In this document: piece after piece, positions 26,676 through 34,599 of the stretch
Layout: each line of letters starts with the position of its first letter
How positions within the stretch are numbered: position 1 is the stretch's first letter
Origin: Lysobacterales bacterium
Lineage (GTDB): Bacteria; Pseudomonadota; Gammaproteobacteria; Xanthomonadales; Xanthomonadaceae
Length of the DNA: 34,599 nucleotides
Direction of reading: 5' to 3'
Assembly (NCBI GenBank): GCA_015655355.1
Contig: JAATFG010000073.1
Location: forward strand, 1-34,599
Position numbers and translations under genes: made by a program
The notes under the pieces: model-generated
What the model was told of the DNA's origin: nothing
The model's input: only the letters and a program-made list of their open reading frames with translations
Database searches by the model: none

Positions 26676-26761
26676 TGGTGCCGGAGGGGGGACTCGAACC
26701 CCCACGATATCACTATCGGCGGATTTTGAGTCCGCTGCGTCTACCGTTCCGCCACTCCGGC
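26676..26761 (-). tRNA. tRNA-Leu (anticodon CAA)
   Basis: On the minus strand the sequence folds as a class II tRNA. The acceptor arm is GCCGGAG/CTCCGGC, the anticodon arm GCGGA-CTCAAAA-TCCGC with anticodon CAA, there is a long variable arm, and the T-arm is GGGGGTTCGAGTCCCCC. The terminal CCA is encoded. It reads UUG codons. Confidence 0.96.
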
Positions 26762-27340: not shown

Positions 27341-27877
27341 ATGAGCGCCGCAACCCTCACCCACCGCCTCGCCCGCCGCGACGACCTGCCGGCCCTGCGC
27401 ATGCTGATGGACGCGGCGATCGGCGAATTGCAGCAATCCTTTCTCGACCCCGAACAGATCGCCGCCAGCCGCTTGTTCATGGGCCTGGACACGCAACTGA
27501 TCGACGACGGAACCTACTTTCTCGTCGAGGCCGACGGCGAACTGGCCGGCTGCGGCGGCTGGAGCATGCGCAACACCTTGTACGGCGGCGACCATACGCC
27601 GGGGCGCAATGCGGATTTGCTCGATCCGGCGCGCGATGCCGCGCGCATCCGCGCGATGTACACGCACCCGACGCACGCACGCAGGGGTGTCGGCAAGCTG
27701 ATCATCTCGCTGTGCGAACGGGCCGCGCGCGAAGCGGGTTTCAGGTCCGCGGAAATGATGGCGACGCTGTCCGGCGTGCCGCTGTACCGTGCCTGCGGCT
27801 ACACGCCGATCGAGGAAGTGCTCGACGAACGCGGCGGCGTGCCGGTGCCGCTGTTGCGGATGCGCAAGCAATTCTGA
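27341..27877 (+). CDS. GNAT-family N-acetyltransferase
   Basis: A 178-residue acetyl-CoA-dependent acyltransferase. The fold is visible as HRLARRDDLPALRMLMDAAI (helix 1), FLVEADGELAGCGGW (strand 2-3), and IRAMYTHPTHARRGVGKLIISLCE. In that last segment the V/T-HPxxxRRGVG motif (about residues 105-115) binds the pyrophosphate of acetyl-CoA. The C-terminal GVPLYRACGYTP is also typical. The substrate is unknown. It is followed by a clear terminator. Confidence 0.9.
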   Translation: MSAATLTHRLARRDDLPALRMLMDAAIGELQQSFLDPEQIAASRLFMGLDTQLIDDGTYFLVEADGELAGCGGWSMRNTLYGGDHTPGRNADLLDPARDAARIRAMYTHPTHARRGVGKLIISLCERAAREAGFRSAEMMATLSGVPLYRACGYTPIEEVLDERGGVPVPLLRMRKQF

Positions 27878-27911
27878 TACCTGGGTCACGGTATCTTGCC
27901 GATTTTTCTCA

Positions 27912-27937
27912 GAACCCGCGGAAACGCGGGTTTTTTC
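27912..27937 (+). terminator. Intrinsic terminator of the GNAT gene
   Basis: AACCCGCG-GAAA-CGCGGGTT is followed by TTTT, 34 bp after the stop codon. Confidence 0.88.
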
Positions 27938-27988
27938 GTCATGGCCCCTCGCGTTTTCCGCCATTTCCGCAGCCGCAATGTCGCCGCG

Positions 27989-28020
27989 CTGTCACGCGCC
28001 GTTTCTAACATTTTCCTAAC
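27989..28020 (+). promoter_or_regulatory. 11-bp-spaced repeats upstream of the receptor gene, Pho-box-like
   Basis: CTGTCAC at 27989 matches six of seven bases of a PhoB half-site. The segments that follow at 11-bp spacing are CGTTTCT and TTTTCCT, with TTTCTAAC and TTCCTAAC as a clear 11-bp direct repeat. This is the usual spacing for OmpR/PhoB-type regulators. The match beyond the first half-site is poor. Confidence 0.35.
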
Positions 28021-28068
28021 CGCTGCACACCGGCCGGTTCATTCCATTTTTCTCCAGGTATTCCGCTC

Positions 28069-30333
28069 ATGCGCAAGAATCTGCTTGCCCTCCATGTCTC
28101 GTTGCTGCTCGGCAGCGCCGTTCCCGCCATCGCCTTCGCGCAGTCCGCCACCAACAATGCCGCGCAGGACGCGAAAGTCGACAGCGGCACCGCGACGGCG
28201 AGCGCGACCACGCTCGACAAGGTCATCGTCAGCGGCAACAGCGTCGACACGCTGGCGCCGTCCGCCGCGCCGCTCGAAGCGAGCCAGCCGACCTCGATCA
28301 TCGACGAGCGCTTCATCCGCGACAGCCTGCGCAACAACTCGAACTTCGACTCCCTCATCAAGTACGCGCCAAGCATGTCGGTGAGCTCGCCGGAAGGCCC
28401 TGGCATGGGCAAGGCCGAAAACACTTCGCTGCGCGGCTTCCAGGACGGCCAGTTCAACATGACCTTCGACGGCATCCCGTTCGGCGATTCCAGCGACTGG
28501 CACCACACCACCTCGGCCTACTTCACCAACCACGTGCTGAGCCAGGCGCAGATCGAACGCGGCCCGGGCACCGCCAGCACGATCGGCAATGCCACCTTCG
28601 GCGGCAACATCGGCCTGCGCTCGCGCAACCCGAGCGACGTCGACGGCATCACCCCGTACTTCACCGTCGGTTCGTGGAACACGCTGGCCGGCGGCGTCAG
28701 CGCCGACGAGCACGTCGGCAACACCGCCGTCTTCGCCGACCTGTCCGACGAAAAGAGCGACACCTACCTGAAGAACACCGACGACAAGCGCCAGCACGTC
28801 TTCGTCAAGACCATCACCCGGTTGGGCGACGAAACCACGCTGACCGTCCTCGCCAACTACAACAAGGAACGCCAGAACACCGTGCAGGGCGCGACCAAGG
28901 AGATGATCGAAAACGATCCGCGCTCCGGCGGCCTGACCGACAACCCGGCCCTGCTGAGCTACGCCGGCTACAACGGCGCCAAGTATTCCTCGGTGTTCAG
29001 CTACATCGGCCTGGATACGCGCTTCGGCGACAACTGGAGCTTCAACGACAAGCTCTACTTCAACAACTTCGACCACTGGTCGAACAAGACCGCCGACGCC
29101 ACCGACAGCGACCCGGATTCGCCGTCGCTCGGCGTGCAGTATTACTACCCGGTCGGCAGCACCGACGGCACGCCGGGCGACAAGAGCCAGAAGATCGCCG
29201 GCGACGTCGGCGGCAACCAGAGCGACAACAAGTTCCACGCCATCGGCGACACGGCCAAGTTCAGCTACGACTTCGACACCGTGGGCAGCCTGTTGTTCGG
29301 CGTGTGGTACGAACACAGCGAAGCCAGCAAGAGCAAGCGGCCGATGGACTACACGCTGGGCGTGCCGAGCTACGTCAAGAAGACCGGCGTCGTCTCCACG
29401 TTGGAAACCTACACCACCGACACCTTGCAACCGTACCTGGAATTCGACTGGAAGCTCACCGACCAGCTGACCTTGACCCCCGGCGTGCGCTACGCCTCGA
29501 CCAAGCGCGAGGACAAGCAGCCGAGCCTCGCCTACGATGGCAGCGCCACGTACAGCGCCACGTTGCCGTCGGTGTCGCTGCACGATGCGATCAGCGACCA
29601 CTGGTCGGCCTATGCCCAAGCGGCGCAAGGCTTCCTCGCTCCGCCGATCGACTACGTCGAAGACACCGACACCACCAGCGGCCGGCATCTCGACCCGGAA
29701 AAGACCACCAACTTCCAGATCGGCACGGCTTACGCGGCCAAGAGCGTCACCTTCGGCATCGACGTCTACGACATCGACTTCGACAACTACATCACTTCGT
29801 ACACGCCCGTCGGCAGCGACGATGCGATCTACGTCAACCGCGGCGGCGCAACCTACAAGGGCGCCGAAGCCGAAGCCACGCTCTCGCTGACCCACGGCCT
29901 GAGCCTGTACGCCAACGCCAGCTACAACCAGGCCGAGTACAAGCACAGCAACGTGCAGATCGGCAACACGCCGAAGGAAACCGGCGCGATCGGCCTGCTC
30001 TATTCCGGCGACAGCGGCTTCTTCGGTTCGCTGATGGACAAGATCATCGGCGAGGAATACGGCGACGACGGCTCCACGGCCGACGTGCCCGTGTTCCAGG
30101 ACCAGCCGAACACGCACATGGGCGGCTATTCCACCTGGGATGGCGCGTTCGGCTACCGCAGCAAGGACGGCGGCCCGACCGGCAAGGGCTGGACGGTCAG
30201 CCTCGACGTCACCAACCTCTTCGACGTGCACAAGCTGGCGGACTGGGAAGGCTTGAACACCGCCGGAACCGAAGACACCTGGTTCGCCACGCCCGGCCGC
30301 GGCGTGTTCCTCGACTTCGCCATGAAGCTGTAA
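28069..30333 (+). CDS. TonB-dependent outer membrane receptor
   Basis: A 754-residue receptor with a signal peptide (about residues 1-24, ending AFAQ). A TonB-box-like LDKVIVSG near 48-55 follows. The plug domain comes next (PSMSVSSPEGPGMGKAENTSLRGF, then QIERGPGTAST, the conserved ERG-P-x segment), and then a 22-strand-type barrel with typical endings such as WTVSLDVTNLFDVH. The last residues are FLDFAMKL. It has no N-terminal signalling domain. The substrate is not evident. It is next to a secreted phytase-type phosphatase, so a phosphorylated inositol or its metal complex is an attractive guess. The leader holds AGG upstream of the ATG. Confidence 0.92.
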   Translation: MRKNLLALHVSLLLGSAVPAIAFAQSATNNAAQDAKVDSGTATASATTLDKVIVSGNSVDTLAPSAAPLEASQPTSIIDERFIRDSLRNNSNFDSLIKYAPSMSVSSPEGPGMGKAENTSLRGFQDGQFNMTFDGIPFGDSSDWHHTTSAYFTNHVLSQAQIERGPGTASTIGNATFGGNIGLRSRNPSDVDGITPYFTVGSWNTLAGGVSADEHVGNTAVFADLSDEKSDTYLKNTDDKRQHVFVKTITRLGDETTLTVLANYNKERQNTVQGATKEMIENDPRSGGLTDNPALLSYAGYNGAKYSSVFSYIGLDTRFGDNWSFNDKLYFNNFDHWSNKTADATDSDPDSPSLGVQYYYPVGSTDGTPGDKSQKIAGDVGGNQSDNKFHAIGDTAKFSYDFDTVGSLLFGVWYEHSEASKSKRPMDYTLGVPSYVKKTGVVSTLETYTTDTLQPYLEFDWKLTDQLTLTPGVRYASTKREDKQPSLAYDGSATYSATLPSVSLHDAISDHWSAYAQAAQGFLAPPIDYVEDTDTTSGRHLDPEKTTNFQIGTAYAAKSVTFGIDVYDIDFDNYITSYTPVGSDDAIYVNRGGATYKGAEAEATLSLTHGLSLYANASYNQAEYKHSNVQIGNTPKETGAIGLLYSGDSGFFGSLMDKIIGEEYGDDGSTADVPVFQDQPNTHMGGYSTWDGAFGYRSKDGGPTGKGWTVSLDVTNLFDVHKLADWEGLNTAGTEDTWFATPGRGVFLDFAMKL

Positions 30334-30354
30334 GCCTCGCACGCCGGCGAACAT

Positions 30355-30387
30355 GGGAAAGCCCCGGCAACGGGGCTTTCCTTTTCC
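30355..30387 (+). terminator. Intrinsic terminator after the receptor gene
   Basis: GGAAAGCCCCG-GCAA-CGGGGCTTTCC is followed by TTTTCC. It lies only 22 bp after the receptor stop and 46 bp before the phosphatase start. The two genes may therefore be only partly co-transcribed. Confidence 0.85.
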
Positions 30388-30432
30388 GACGCGATCGCCA
30401 CAATGGCGCCATTCCCGAACGGAACCCCTGCC

Positions 30433-31665
30433 ATGAAATTCCAATCTCTCTGCCTGCTGCTCGGCCTCAGCCTCGCCGGCCTGGCCAATGCAGGCGTGCC
30501 GGCCGCAAACACGCACGACGGCGCGCAGATCGTGCAGCAGATCGTGCTGATCCGCCACGGCATCCGCGCGCCGACCAAGGCGCCGGAAGCGCTCGACGCG
30601 TATTCGGCGCAGCCCTGGCCGCAATGGCCGGTCGCGCCGGGCCAGCTCACCGAACACGGCATCGACCTGATGCGCGCGCTCGGCGCCTGGCACCGCAACG
30701 ACCTGCTCGCCGCCGGCATCGACGTGAAGGCGTGCAACAGCGTGCGCGTGATCGCCGACAGCACGCCGCGCAACCACGACAGCGCCGCGGCGATGCTGCA
30801 AGGCCTCGCCCCGGAGTGCGCGCAGCCGTACTACGCGCTCGCCTCCGACCAGCGCGACCCGTTGTTCAGCGGCGTCGGCAAGAAGCCCGACGACACCTCC
30901 ATCGAGATCGATCCGCGAACCCACGCCACCCTCGCCGAATTGCAGCGCGTGCTGCTCGGCTGCGACGACGACGCGTGCATCGCCAGGGCGCAGGCCGACG
31001 ACCGCAAGCCGCTGCTGGCGATGAAGCCGGACAAGGCGCTGGGCACCGCCGGTTCGCTCTCGGAAAACCTGATGCTCGAATACGTGCAGGGCCTGCCAAG
31101 CGACCAGGTCGCGTGGGGCAAGCTTGATGAAGCCGGCATCGCGCGCATCGTCACCCTGCACAACGCCGATTTCGCCGCATCCGACAAACCGCACGCACGT
31201 GCGCAGCAGCGCGGCGGCAACCTGCTCGCCCACGTCGCCGCGACCTTCGCCCACACCGCCAACGCACAGACCGCCCTGCCTTCGCTCGCCGCGAACGGCG
31301 AACGCGCGGTGGTCCTGCTCGGCCACGACACCGACCTTGCCGTCGCCTCCAGCCTGCTCGACGTCGATTGGCACGACGCCACCGCGCCGGACGACTATCC
31401 ACCCGGCGGCGCGCTGATCTACCAGCTCGTCGAAACCGGCAAGAACGCCTACGCCGTGCGCCTGCGCGTGGCGATGCCGACCCTGCCCGGCCTGCGCGCC
31501 GCCAGCACCGACGGCGACGGCCTGCGCGTGGCGACGGTCAAGCAAGCGGCCTGCGGCAATGCCGAACTGTGCCCGCTGCCGAAGTTCCTGCAGCACGTCC
31601 ACGCCGTCGTCAGCGATGCGGCGATCGATGCGGGCAGCGGCAGCGAGCCGGCGATTACCCCCTGA
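30433..31665 (+). CDS. Secreted histidine acid phosphatase (phytase/glucose-1-phosphatase type)
   Basis: A 410-residue periplasmic phosphatase with signal peptide (about 1-20, ending ANA). The nucleophile motif LIRHGIRAP is at 39-47 (RHGxRxP, His 42), and the acid catalyst HD is in LLGHDTDLA (His 298, Asp 299). Several cysteines (101, 129, 178, 182) could form disulfides, as in AppA. The family includes AppA phytase and Agp glucose-1-phosphatase. HDT favours the broader AppA/Agp type, but specificity is not decidable. The ATG at 30433 starts the signal peptide; an in-frame ATG at 30403 is less likely. Upstream is a TonB-dependent receptor. Confidence 0.9.
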   Translation: MKFQSLCLLLGLSLAGLANAGVPAANTHDGAQIVQQIVLIRHGIRAPTKAPEALDAYSAQPWPQWPVAPGQLTEHGIDLMRALGAWHRNDLLAAGIDVKACNSVRVIADSTPRNHDSAAAMLQGLAPECAQPYYALASDQRDPLFSGVGKKPDDTSIEIDPRTHATLAELQRVLLGCDDDACIARAQADDRKPLLAMKPDKALGTAGSLSENLMLEYVQGLPSDQVAWGKLDEAGIARIVTLHNADFAASDKPHARAQQRGGNLLAHVAATFAHTANAQTALPSLAANGERAVVLLGHDTDLAVASSLLDVDWHDATAPDDYPPGGALIYQLVETGKNAYAVRLRVAMPTLPGLRAASTDGDGLRVATVKQAACGNAELCPLPKFLQHVHAVVSDAAIDAGSGSEPAITP

Positions 31666-31766: not shown

Positions 31767-31792
31767 AAAGCCCCGGCCTGCCGGGGCTTTTT
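31767..31792 (+). terminator. Intrinsic terminator before the methionine-cycle operon
   Basis: AAAGCCCCGG-CCTG-CCGGGGCTTT followed by TT. It lies 102 bp after the phosphatase stop and 12 bp before the predicted promoter of the next operon. Confidence 0.88.
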
Positions 31793-32802: not shown

Positions 32803-33881
32803 AAGAGTTGCCGTGGCTCGATCCGCAGCGCGCCGCAGCGCTGCTGCAAGCACTGCGCGAACGCATCCTGATCATCGATGGGGCGATGGGCACGATGATC
32901 CAGCGCCACGAGTTGCAGGAAGCCGACTATCGCGGCGCGCGTTTCGTCGAAGGCTTCGACGCGCAACATGCGCACGCCCACGGCGAAAATTGCGGCTGCG
33001 ACCTCAAAGGCAACAACGACCTGCTGCTGCTGACCCAGCCGCAAATCATCGCCGGCATCCATGCGCAATACCTCGAAGCCGGCGCGGACCTGATCGAAAC
33101 CAACACCTTCAATTCGACCAACGCGTCCCAGGCCGATTACCACCTCGAACACCTCGTCTACGAATTGAACAAGGCCGGCGCGAAACTGGCGCGCGAGTGC
33201 TGCGATGAAATCGAGAAGAAAACCCCGGACAAGCCGCGCTTCGTGATCGGCGTGCTCGGCCCGACCAGCCGCACCGCGAGCATCAGCCCGGACGTCAACG
33301 ATCCCGGCTTCCGCAACACCAGCTTCGACGAACTGCGCGAAACCTACAGGGAAGCGACGAACGGCCTGATCGACGGCGGCGCCGACATCGTGATGGTCGA
33401 GACCATCTTCGACACGCTCAACGCCAAGGCCGCGCTGTTCGCGATCGAAGAGGTTTTCGAGCAACGCGGCGCACGCCTGCCGGTGATGATTTCCGGCACG
33501 ATCACCGATGCCTCCGGGCGCACGCTGTCCGGGCAAACCGCCGAGGCGTTCTACACCTCGCTGATGCACGCGCGGCCACTGAGCATCGGCTTCAACTGCG
33601 CGCTCGGCGCCAAGGACATGCGCCCGCACGTGGAAACGCTGGCGCATGTCGCCGATGCCTACGTCAGCGCGCACCCGAACGCCGGCCTGCCCAACGCCTT
33701 CGGCGGCTACGACGAAACACCGCAAGACATGGCGGAAATCCTCAGGGAATTCGCCACCTCCGGCCTGCTCAACATCGTCGGCGGCTGTTGCGGGACCACG
33801 CCCGAACACATCAAGGCGATTGCCGAGGCGATGCAAGGCGTCAAGCCGCGCGTGCCGCTGGCATGCGAAAAAGCGGCGTAG
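32799..33881 (+). CDS. metH: Methionine synthase, homocysteine-binding module (separate gene)
   Basis: A 360-residue protein equal to the N-terminal homocysteine S-methyltransferase domain of cobalamin-dependent MetH. It has [11 protein letters not shown] (27-37), [14 protein letters not shown], and the zinc-binding cysteines in GFNCALG (Cys 267) and [10 protein letters not shown] (Cys 330 and 331). It takes up zinc-activated homocysteine and needs the cobalamin and folate modules encoded downstream. GGAG precedes the ATG, which overlaps the regulator stop. In E. coli these modules form one 1227-residue protein. The split layout is, to my knowledge, usual in Xanthomonadaceae. Confidence 0.93.
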
Positions 33882-33966
33882 TCGTCATGCCGGCGAACGC
33901 CGGCCTCCAGCGACTTCAGCGCGAAATATCCAAGACACTGGATCCCGGCGTCCGCCGGGATGACGA
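33882..33966. repeat. GTCATCCCGGCGAAAGCCGGGA-type double-hairpin repeat, copy 2
   Basis: It starts immediately after the metH stop codon: TCGTCATGCCGGCGAACGCC, then CCAGCGACTT, then CACTGGATCCCGGCG...CGCCGGGATGACGA. It has the same two-hairpin plan and core as copy 1 at 8343-8420 and fills nearly the entire gap between the two methionine synthase genes. Confidence 0.78.
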
Positions 33967-33976
33967 GCAAAAGAAA

Positions 33977-34599
33977 ATGATGCAAGCCCGCCACACCCGC
34001 CTCTCCGGCCTCGAACCGCTGGTCGTCAGCCCCGACCTGCTGTTCGTCAACATCGGCGAGCGCACCAACGTCACCGGCTCGGCGCAGTTCCGCAAGCTGA
34101 TCAAGGAAGAGCGCTACGGCGAAGCGGTCGATGTCGCGCGCCAGCAGGTCGAAAGCGGCGCGCAGATCCTCGACATCAACATGGACGAAGGCCTGATCGA
34201 TTCGGAAAAGGCGATGCGCCGCTTCCTCAACCTGATCGCCTCCGAGCCGGACATCGCGCGTATCCCGGTGATGGTGGACAGCTCGAAATGGAGCGTGATC
34301 GAAGCCGGCCTGCAATGTTTGCAGGGCAAGGGCGTGGTCAATTCGATTTCGCTCAAGGAAGGCGAAGCGGCCTTCATCGAACACGCACGCAAAGTGCTGC
34401 GCTACGGCGCGGCGACGGTGGTGATGGCGTTCGACGAGAAAGGCCAGGCGGACACCAAGGAACGCAAGATCGAAATCTGCACGCGCGCCTACGACATCCT
34501 CGTCGGGCAAGTCGGCTTTCCGCCGGAAGACATCATCTTCGACCCCAACATCTTCGCCATCGCCACCGGCATCGAGGAGCACGACAACTACGCGGTCGA
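33977..34599 (+). CDS. metH: Methionine synthase, folate/cobalamin/activation part (cut by window edge)
   Basis: The first 207 codons of the second methionine synthase gene. Seen is the beginning of the pterin (methyltetrahydrofolate)-binding domain: [20 protein letters not shown], then [42 protein letters not shown] and NSISLKEGE, then FDEKGQADT and [11 protein letters not shown]. The cobalamin-binding and SAM-activation domains are expected beyond the right edge. The start is ATG 33977 or 33980. No clear ribosome site exists because the palindromic repeat ends just 10 bp upstream. It works with the homocysteine module upstream. Confidence 0.92.

Follow-up and report, generated by a model that had tools for sequence, protein, structure and literature searches.

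A conserved TonB-dependent receptor–histidine acid phosphatase gene pair behind a Pho-type promoter in a Lysobacterales bacterium: a candidate organic phosphate uptake module with two regulatory forms

A TonB-dependent receptor gene and a histidine acid phosphatase gene lie side by side in a 34,599-nucleotide stretch of DNA (the window) from a Lysobacterales bacterium (contig JAATFG010000073.1, assembly GCA_015655355.1). The pairing was conserved in relatives, the receptor frame was intact and was preceded by a Pho box and a -10-like element, and the phosphatase had the catalytic motifs and the predicted fold of AppA phytases. The genome also carried a PhoB gene (372.3 bits against an NCBIfam cut-off of 296.2). 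From these sequence features, the two genes probably form a PhoB-controlled uptake module for organic phosphate, and the chances that inositol phosphate in particular is the imported substrate are about even. Under phosphate limitation, PhoB would activate the receptor promoter, and the receptor, energised by TonB, would carry a phosphomonoester into the periplasm, an inositol phosphate being the most likely candidate. The periplasmic phosphatase would then remove the phosphates, which would enter the cell through Pst. The coordinates of the features are collected in Table 1.

The adjacency of the two genes, proposed in a preliminary description of the window, was confirmed, and both reading frames were intact. 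The product of the first gene was a TonB-dependent receptor, with the Plug domain (PF07715, 38.9 bits; cut-off 23.9) and the TonB_dep_Rec_b-barrel domain (PF00593, 137.4 bits; cut-off 27). When 398 genomes of the order were searched at E ≤ 1e-100, 70 genomes, including the window's own, held a receptor match. Besides the window receptor there were 24 strong orthologs, 23 of them with at least 1353.8 bits and one split into pieces of 706 and 670; the next match scored 590.7. The phosphatase gene was located immediately downstream of the receptor gene in 24/24 strong orthologs. The fecR gene was located upstream in 24/24 and fecI in 23/24, the remaining stretch ending before the fecI position. 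Since all 24 orthologs in other genomes shared the adjacency, the receptor and the phosphatase are a conserved pair and their adjacency is not due to chance. The preliminary description had held that a pair confined to this strain would speak against a functional link; the pair was present in Xanthomonas, in another family of the order (f12) and in Mitsuaria.

Named relatives came from a peptide-pattern search for the phosphatase, in which short patterns were used and 8 of 40 stretches were kept, so the distribution is not a census. The receptor was directly upstream in five of the eight (Xanthomonas L010, L011, L012 and L015, and Mitsuaria L013) and not in the other three (Dyella L009, L014 and L016). 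In X. axonopodis DSM 3585 (L014) and X. bromi (L016), the phosphatase match was split between frames and no receptor match lay beside it; L014 retained a Pho-type site upstream. The genus g27 was assigned to Xanthomonas from L047, which was identical to L015, and these represent the same locus rather than independent cases. A search of 369 genomes of the class at E ≤ 1e-140 gave only the window's own genome and three distant receptor matches (489–572 bits), and the 24 records of a plasmid search were all below 60% identity.

The region before the receptor was scanned with a two-unit PhoB matrix, trained on the regions before pstS in 23 genomes of the genus, with the own pstS included. Training was started from the E. 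coli Pho-box consensus, and pstS loci of other families (L029 and L041) and weak loci (L042–L046) were excluded. The top matrix site of the window on both strands was ATGTCGCCGCGCTGTCAC at 27978–27995, with 13.8 bits against 10.8 bits for the next site. When the matrix was retrained 40 times on a random 12 of the 23 promoters, this Pho box came first in 34 runs, second in five and 463rd in one. Matrices from shuffled promoters placed it between rank 2 and rank 43784 in 20 trials; scored with nothing but the E. coli consensus, it came 19th. Its shuffle p value in the 80-bp promoter region was 0.006. A PhoB matrix scan had been suggested in the preliminary description, and the top site indeed contained the CTGTCAC motif (27989–27995) singled out there, as the second unit of the box; the box as a whole was located elsewhere than the Pho-box-like repeats proposed.

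Similar sites were found in the promoters of relatives. Upstream stretches were fetched for 20 of the 24 orthologs, and these fecI stretches, together with L012, L013 and the window, gave 23 module promoters with regions of 80–100 bp. The best site was on the sense strand in 23/23, with a shuffle p value below 0.05 in 19/23, although the regions were picked after the site positions had been seen, and the 23 tests are not independent because of the relatedness of many of the promoters. The best matrix site of the locus was located before the module in six of the eight named loci, narrowly so in L012 (10.6 against 9.7 bits).

In the module promoters, a constant 9 nt separated the box from a downstream CTAGCNT, CCAGCAT or similar sequence. 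A TA pair occupied the -10 offset in 14 of the 23 promoters, and at most 2 of the 23 at any of 24 other offsets. The preliminary description had proposed an 11-bp direct repeat of TTTCTAAC (28002–28009) and TTCCTAAC (28013–28020), and the two copies, 11 bp apart, were present in the sequence. As a PhoB repeat they found no support, since the region scored only 1.3 bits in a three-unit PhoB model taking in TTTCTAAC. Because CTAACAT sits at the spacing seen in relatives, TTTCTAAC holds a -10-like element and is not a further PhoB unit. No counterpart of the TTCCTAAC copy was noticed in the other module promoters, and this copy was taken as a coincidence. The region before the receptor thus has the layout of the Pho regulon, in which two 7-mers 11 bp apart precede a -10 element.

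The window pair resembles a reduced version of a four-gene set that is conserved in its relatives (fecI-fecR-receptor-phosphatase). In the four-gene form, the Pho-type site was located 53–91 bp before the estimated fecI start. A second element, TGTAAGAAAA(A/G)ATTCAY with a GGTA block behind it, was located 81–129 bp before the receptor in 20/20 fetched fecIR stretches. The same element was found before the receptor in L010, where it starts at the fecR stop codon, and in L011, with a variant in L012; it is presumably the FecI-dependent promoter. In the window and L013, the 170 bp ahead of the receptor showed no such element, and the whole window gave no match with three mismatches allowed. An STN-like N-terminal match was found in all three four-gene relatives tested (E values of 2.8e-6, 0.001 and 0.055), all of them under the Pfam cut-off, which counts against the proposed reading. 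The receptors of the window and Mitsuaria L013 gave no STN match. Furthermore, no FecI/FecR match was found within 1.5 kb beside the window receptor (locus L070), and no fecI or fecR was read among the open reading frames beside the Mitsuaria receptor. The window receptor therefore lacked the STN domain and the adjacent fecI-fecR genes of a FecA-type transducer, and in both genomes the Pho-type promoter was located straight before the receptor.

In the relatives, regulation would proceed in two tiers. PhoB would make FecI and FecR, and the loaded receptor would then signal via its N-terminal STN domain, so that FecI would be released and the receptor-phosphatase promoter would fire. In the window genome and Mitsuaria, the signalling tier is absent and the receptor is placed directly behind the Pho-type promoter. 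The Mitsuaria sequence behind the box, CCAGCATCGCCGGCTTTTC, differed at one position from CCAGCATCGCAGGCTTTTC of the L077/L078 fecI promoters, and this near identity suggests that the fecI promoter became joined to the receptor when the signalling genes were lost. The window phosphatase belonged to a supported group of seven (100/98), together with Dyella L009 and five members of f12 in which fecIR is retained. This placement favours loss of fecIR over a primitive two-gene state; the receptor tree was open at the point bearing on one or two losses. Taken to its full extent, the proposal would be a dedicated active inositol-phosphate importer with two regulatory forms. One would respond to phosphate hunger and ligand sensing and the other to PhoB alone, the window genome and Mitsuaria having shed their entire sensing tier, which comprises the sigma and anti-sigma factors, the signalling domain of the receptor and its promoter element. 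This extended proposal is held tentatively, at slightly worse than even chances.

The second gene of the pair encodes a histidine acid phosphatase of the AppA/Agp branch. His_Phos_2 (41 bits; cut-off 23.6) was the sole Pfam family found at E 0.001, so that the phytase family pf02333 of the Flavobacterium-type locus, presumably the beta-propeller type, was not represented. Residues Arg41, His42, Gly43, Arg45 and Pro47 of the RHGxRxP motif, His298 and Asp299 of the HD motif, and Arg113 were invariant in 30/30 aligned phosphatases (29 different sequences). The best PDB sequence matches were bacterial phytases. A structural model (pLDDT 77.7, from 7 rows) was matched to Hafnia alvei phytase with a Z score of 38.0 and an r.m.s.d. 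of 2.9 over 362 residues. AppA-type phytases were fitted with Z scores of 38.0–35.5 and glucose-1-phosphatases with 34.0–33.3; among the remaining entries shown, other acid phosphatases reached at most 27.4 and fungal or MINPP-type phytases about 21–23. E. coli AppA and H. alvei phytase had the fold and catalytic motifs in common with the window enzyme at 26–29% identity in structural alignments. The phytase-type phosphatase of the preliminary description is thus matched by the modelled AppA-phytase fold.

The window receptor was 51–57% identical to the strong orthologs. The clade-specific basic residues Lys115, His145, His243 and Lys340 were kept in the window receptor; among the 28 others aligned, at least 27 had them, and they were replaced in the eight outgroup receptors. 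An AlphaFold model of the receptor (6 rows) reached a pLDDT of only 41 and was too poor to inform on a binding pocket or ligand.

In a sister group of receptors from genomes of the order, about 34% identical (L072–L076), the next frame bore a PAP2 acid phosphatase signature in 5/5 loci, Pfam-checked in L072 only. These loci had a Pho-type box at -78 to -81, then 9 nt, then CTAG(G/C)TTG or (T/C)TACGGTG, in 5/5. The shuffle p values of these sites were 0.006 to 0.15, below 0.05 in two of five, and the site was the best of the whole locus in three of five. In the window's own genus, a different and distantly related histidine acid phosphatase was located right after an apparent other TonB-dependent receptor in five of six loci (L003, L004, L005, L007 and L008; L006 was unclear, and the Pfam check covered L003 only).

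Several observations weigh against a Pho-controlled inositol phosphate importer in the window genome, and the first of them concern the receptor. Of the 289 positions on which the 28 other aligned members all agree, it altered 53; in a leave-one-out count it altered 54 of 290, followed by L012 with 13 of 249. Its end branch in the tree was 1.02, compared with at most 0.34 for the rest of its group. The window receptor is thus the most divergent aligned member, and because of this long end branch its ligand may have shifted. Five invariant basic residues were turned non-basic (K227D, R286S, K371D, K383N and K482D), and the near-invariant Arg449 was Thr. Such losses are in line with the main rival explanation, in which the same Pho-controlled module takes up another ligand, such as a sugar phosphate, a nucleotide or a phospholipid head group. 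The fold is common to AppA-type phytases and glucose-1-phosphatases, the window protein fell under both NCBIfam equivalog cut-offs, and the pairing of the sister receptors with PAP2-type phosphatases indicates that the wider receptor family may handle phosphomonoesters generally. However, the better structural fit of the AppA-type phytases and the four retained clade-specific residues, as expected for a highly anionic ligand, argue for inositol phosphate, and another ligand is rather unlikely, if still a serious contender. On the enzyme side, the match to the NCBIfam AppA equivalog (NF007552) was 153.9 bits against a curated 585. With a score so far under the cut-off, the window phosphatase is AppA-like rather than AppA, and its phytase activity is predicted from the fold match.

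Further points against this reading concern its regulation. The window Pho box is imperfect, matching the E. coli consensus at 10 of 14 positions, and the shuffle p value exceeded 0.05 in four of the 23 module promoters. Of the 20 fetched stretches of 3.9 kb, only 9 had their overall best site before fecI. L016 had no site before the module, and in L009 the best site (14.2 bits) was elsewhere, with a site of 12.7 bits about 210 bp before the phosphatase. In addition, the gap between the receptor and phosphatase genes is 99 bp in the window and contains a strong hairpin, with which their co-transcription is not assured. The hairpin is followed by an imperfect T tract, and the T-tract rule of the terminator scan does not list it. 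Since the strong hairpin and broken T tract lie between the genes, the phosphatase level may be below the receptor level. The two genes overlap or are 8–10 bp apart in each of the five named relatives that have the pair, which leaves no room for a hairpin.

Finally, the receptor was found in 0 of 36 other genomes of the window's genus (E ≤ 1e-30). This absence, the long branch with its many altered invariant sites, the missing signalling genes and the hairpin between the genes would all suit a module that was acquired horizontally and survives here as a decaying or repurposed remnant. A remnant is nevertheless improbable, for both frames are intact and the catalytic motifs, the plug and the promoter layout have been kept.

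An iron acquisition system was considered as a further explanation, in which iron would enter through the receptor as ferric phytate or some other phosphorylated chelate and then be released by the phosphatase. Inositol phosphate-mediated iron transport reportedly occurs in Pseudomonas aeruginosa, and FecI/FecR with FecA-like receptors are classically iron systems. The best NCBIfam match of the receptor was TonB-siderophor, though at 129.7 bits it was below the cut-off of 223.5, and one 12/19 match to the Xanthomonas Fur consensus was located at the start codon of the window receptor, the only such match in the regions of that scan. Against this, when 130 bp of each of the 23 module promoters (160 bp in L012) was scanned, the best Fur-box match was 11/19, equal to the 95th percentile of shuffled sequences (11) and no better than shuffles. 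In the rows available from the published set, X. campestris Fur boxes match 14–17/19 (PMC1790865). The module promoters carry Pho-type sites, and Fur control of the module was set aside as weak, with promoter scores at the shuffle level. An iron role is therefore hardly probable, and the iron complex suggested as a substrate in the preliminary description found little support.

The neighbourhood of the pair was compared with that in other genomes of the genus. Downstream of the phosphatase are an ArsR-type methyltransferase gene and then metH, both named by eye. The 1.5 kb on either side of this methyltransferase gene gave no match to GNAT, receptor or phosphatase in 15/15 same-genus genomes that have the gene, and the five of these loci inspected by eye had a divergent acyl-CoA dehydrogenase-like frame upstream. 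The gene order before the methyltransferase gene (window 31873) is thus unlike that of the same-genus genomes examined; no clean empty insertion site was found among the 15 loci. Contamination of the contig is unlikely, as the MetX encoded on the same contig (named by eye) was 76–82% identical to 12/12 same-genus genomes. The best copies in 8/8 genomes of other families were 49–63% identical, the lowest being a fragment.

Table 1. Features of the receptor–phosphatase region (window coordinates).
Feature	Position	Strand	Description
GNAT gene	27341–27877		Lies before receptor
Terminator-like hairpin after GNAT gene, ahead of receptor promoter	27911–27934	+	10-bp stem, -16.8 kcal/mol, z -3.3, then T run
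Pho box ATGTCGC-N4-CTGTCAC	27978–27995	+	Units 27978–27984 and 27989–27995, two 7-mers 11 bp apart
-10-like element CTAACAT	28005–28011	+	9 nt past Pho box (gap 27996–28004)
TonB-dependent receptor, 754 aa	28069–30333	+	Plug and barrel; signal peptide by eye; no STN domain found
Intergenic 12-bp hairpin, possible attenuator	30355–30382	+	Fold of 30345–30395 = -27.7 kcal/mol, z -4.4
AppA-like histidine acid phosphatase, 410 aa	30433–31665	+	Sec signal peptide by eye; RHGIRAPT and HD motifs
Terminator-like hairpin after phosphatase	31767–31790	+	10-bp stem, -19.4 kcal/mol, z -3.7, then T run

The hairpin ahead of the receptor promoter is absent from the terminator-scan list, and the one after the phosphatase is listed there in a version with a shorter stem. 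An alternative upstream ATG at 30403 would give a phosphatase of 420 aa. Elsewhere in the window, the metH gene was found in two reading frames with palindromic repeat-like sequence between them (33881–33980), and a tRNA-Leu gene with the anticodon CAA was located on the minus strand (26676–26761).

Receptor genes beside phytase genes have been reported from other bacteria, here compared through the parts of the papers available. In Flavobacterium johnsoniae, the TonB-dependent transporter (TBDT)–phytase locus Fjoh_1367/1368 is induced by phosphate depletion, and some clusters of the phosphate utilisation systems (Pus) contain FecR-like and sigma factor genes (PMC8115612). These resemble the module in having a receptor beside a phytase, but the host is a member of the Bacteroidetes, the phytase is pf02333 and not a histidine acid phosphatase, and PusC works with the SusD-like PusD (PMC8115612). 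A TBDT gene adjacent to a phytase gene in Citromicrobium was likewise read as a system for phytic acid uptake; it is a single locus, and the part of the paper available shows neither regulation nor conservation (PMC3400609). In the Caulobacter PhoB regulon, TonB receptors and a phytase are under PhoB control and uptake was proposed, with no adjacent pair and no FecI/FecR module in the part of that paper available (PMC11208175).

The four-gene form of the relatives resembles VreA-VreI-VreR (PUMA3) of Pseudomonas aeruginosa in its sigma/anti-sigma surface signalling under PhoB. Unlike the receptor of the module, VreA is the receptor-like protein of a virulence regulator, and no phytase is mentioned in the available part of the source (PMC4971064). 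Xanthomonas campestris XCC3593–3595 has the fecI-fecR-receptor order of the xanthomonad relatives; this locus has a Fur box before fecI, and the word phytase is absent from the main text of the paper (PMC1790865). As further background from sources available in part, X. oryzae PhyA is described as a secreted phytase with a presumed role in virulence (PMC9403785), and TonB-dependent regulatory genes of B. multivorans respond to soluble phosphate (PMC9414882).

In the open-licence literature, outside of which most subscription journals lie, no paper was noticed on the module of receptor and AppA-like phosphatase or on its FecIR form. Phosphate-inducible receptor–phytase neighbours are known already, and the pairing with an AppA-like phosphatase and the forms with and without FecIR appear to be new. 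Phytate is a major organic phosphorus store of soil and seeds and, to our knowledge, its crossing of the outer membrane is rarely addressed. With a receptor and an AppA-like phosphatase behind a PhoB-type promoter, active import of inositol phosphate would be directly testable in Proteobacteria. Furthermore, the components of the sensing tier are present or absent together, and this offers a natural experiment on the gain or loss of signalling by transport receptors.

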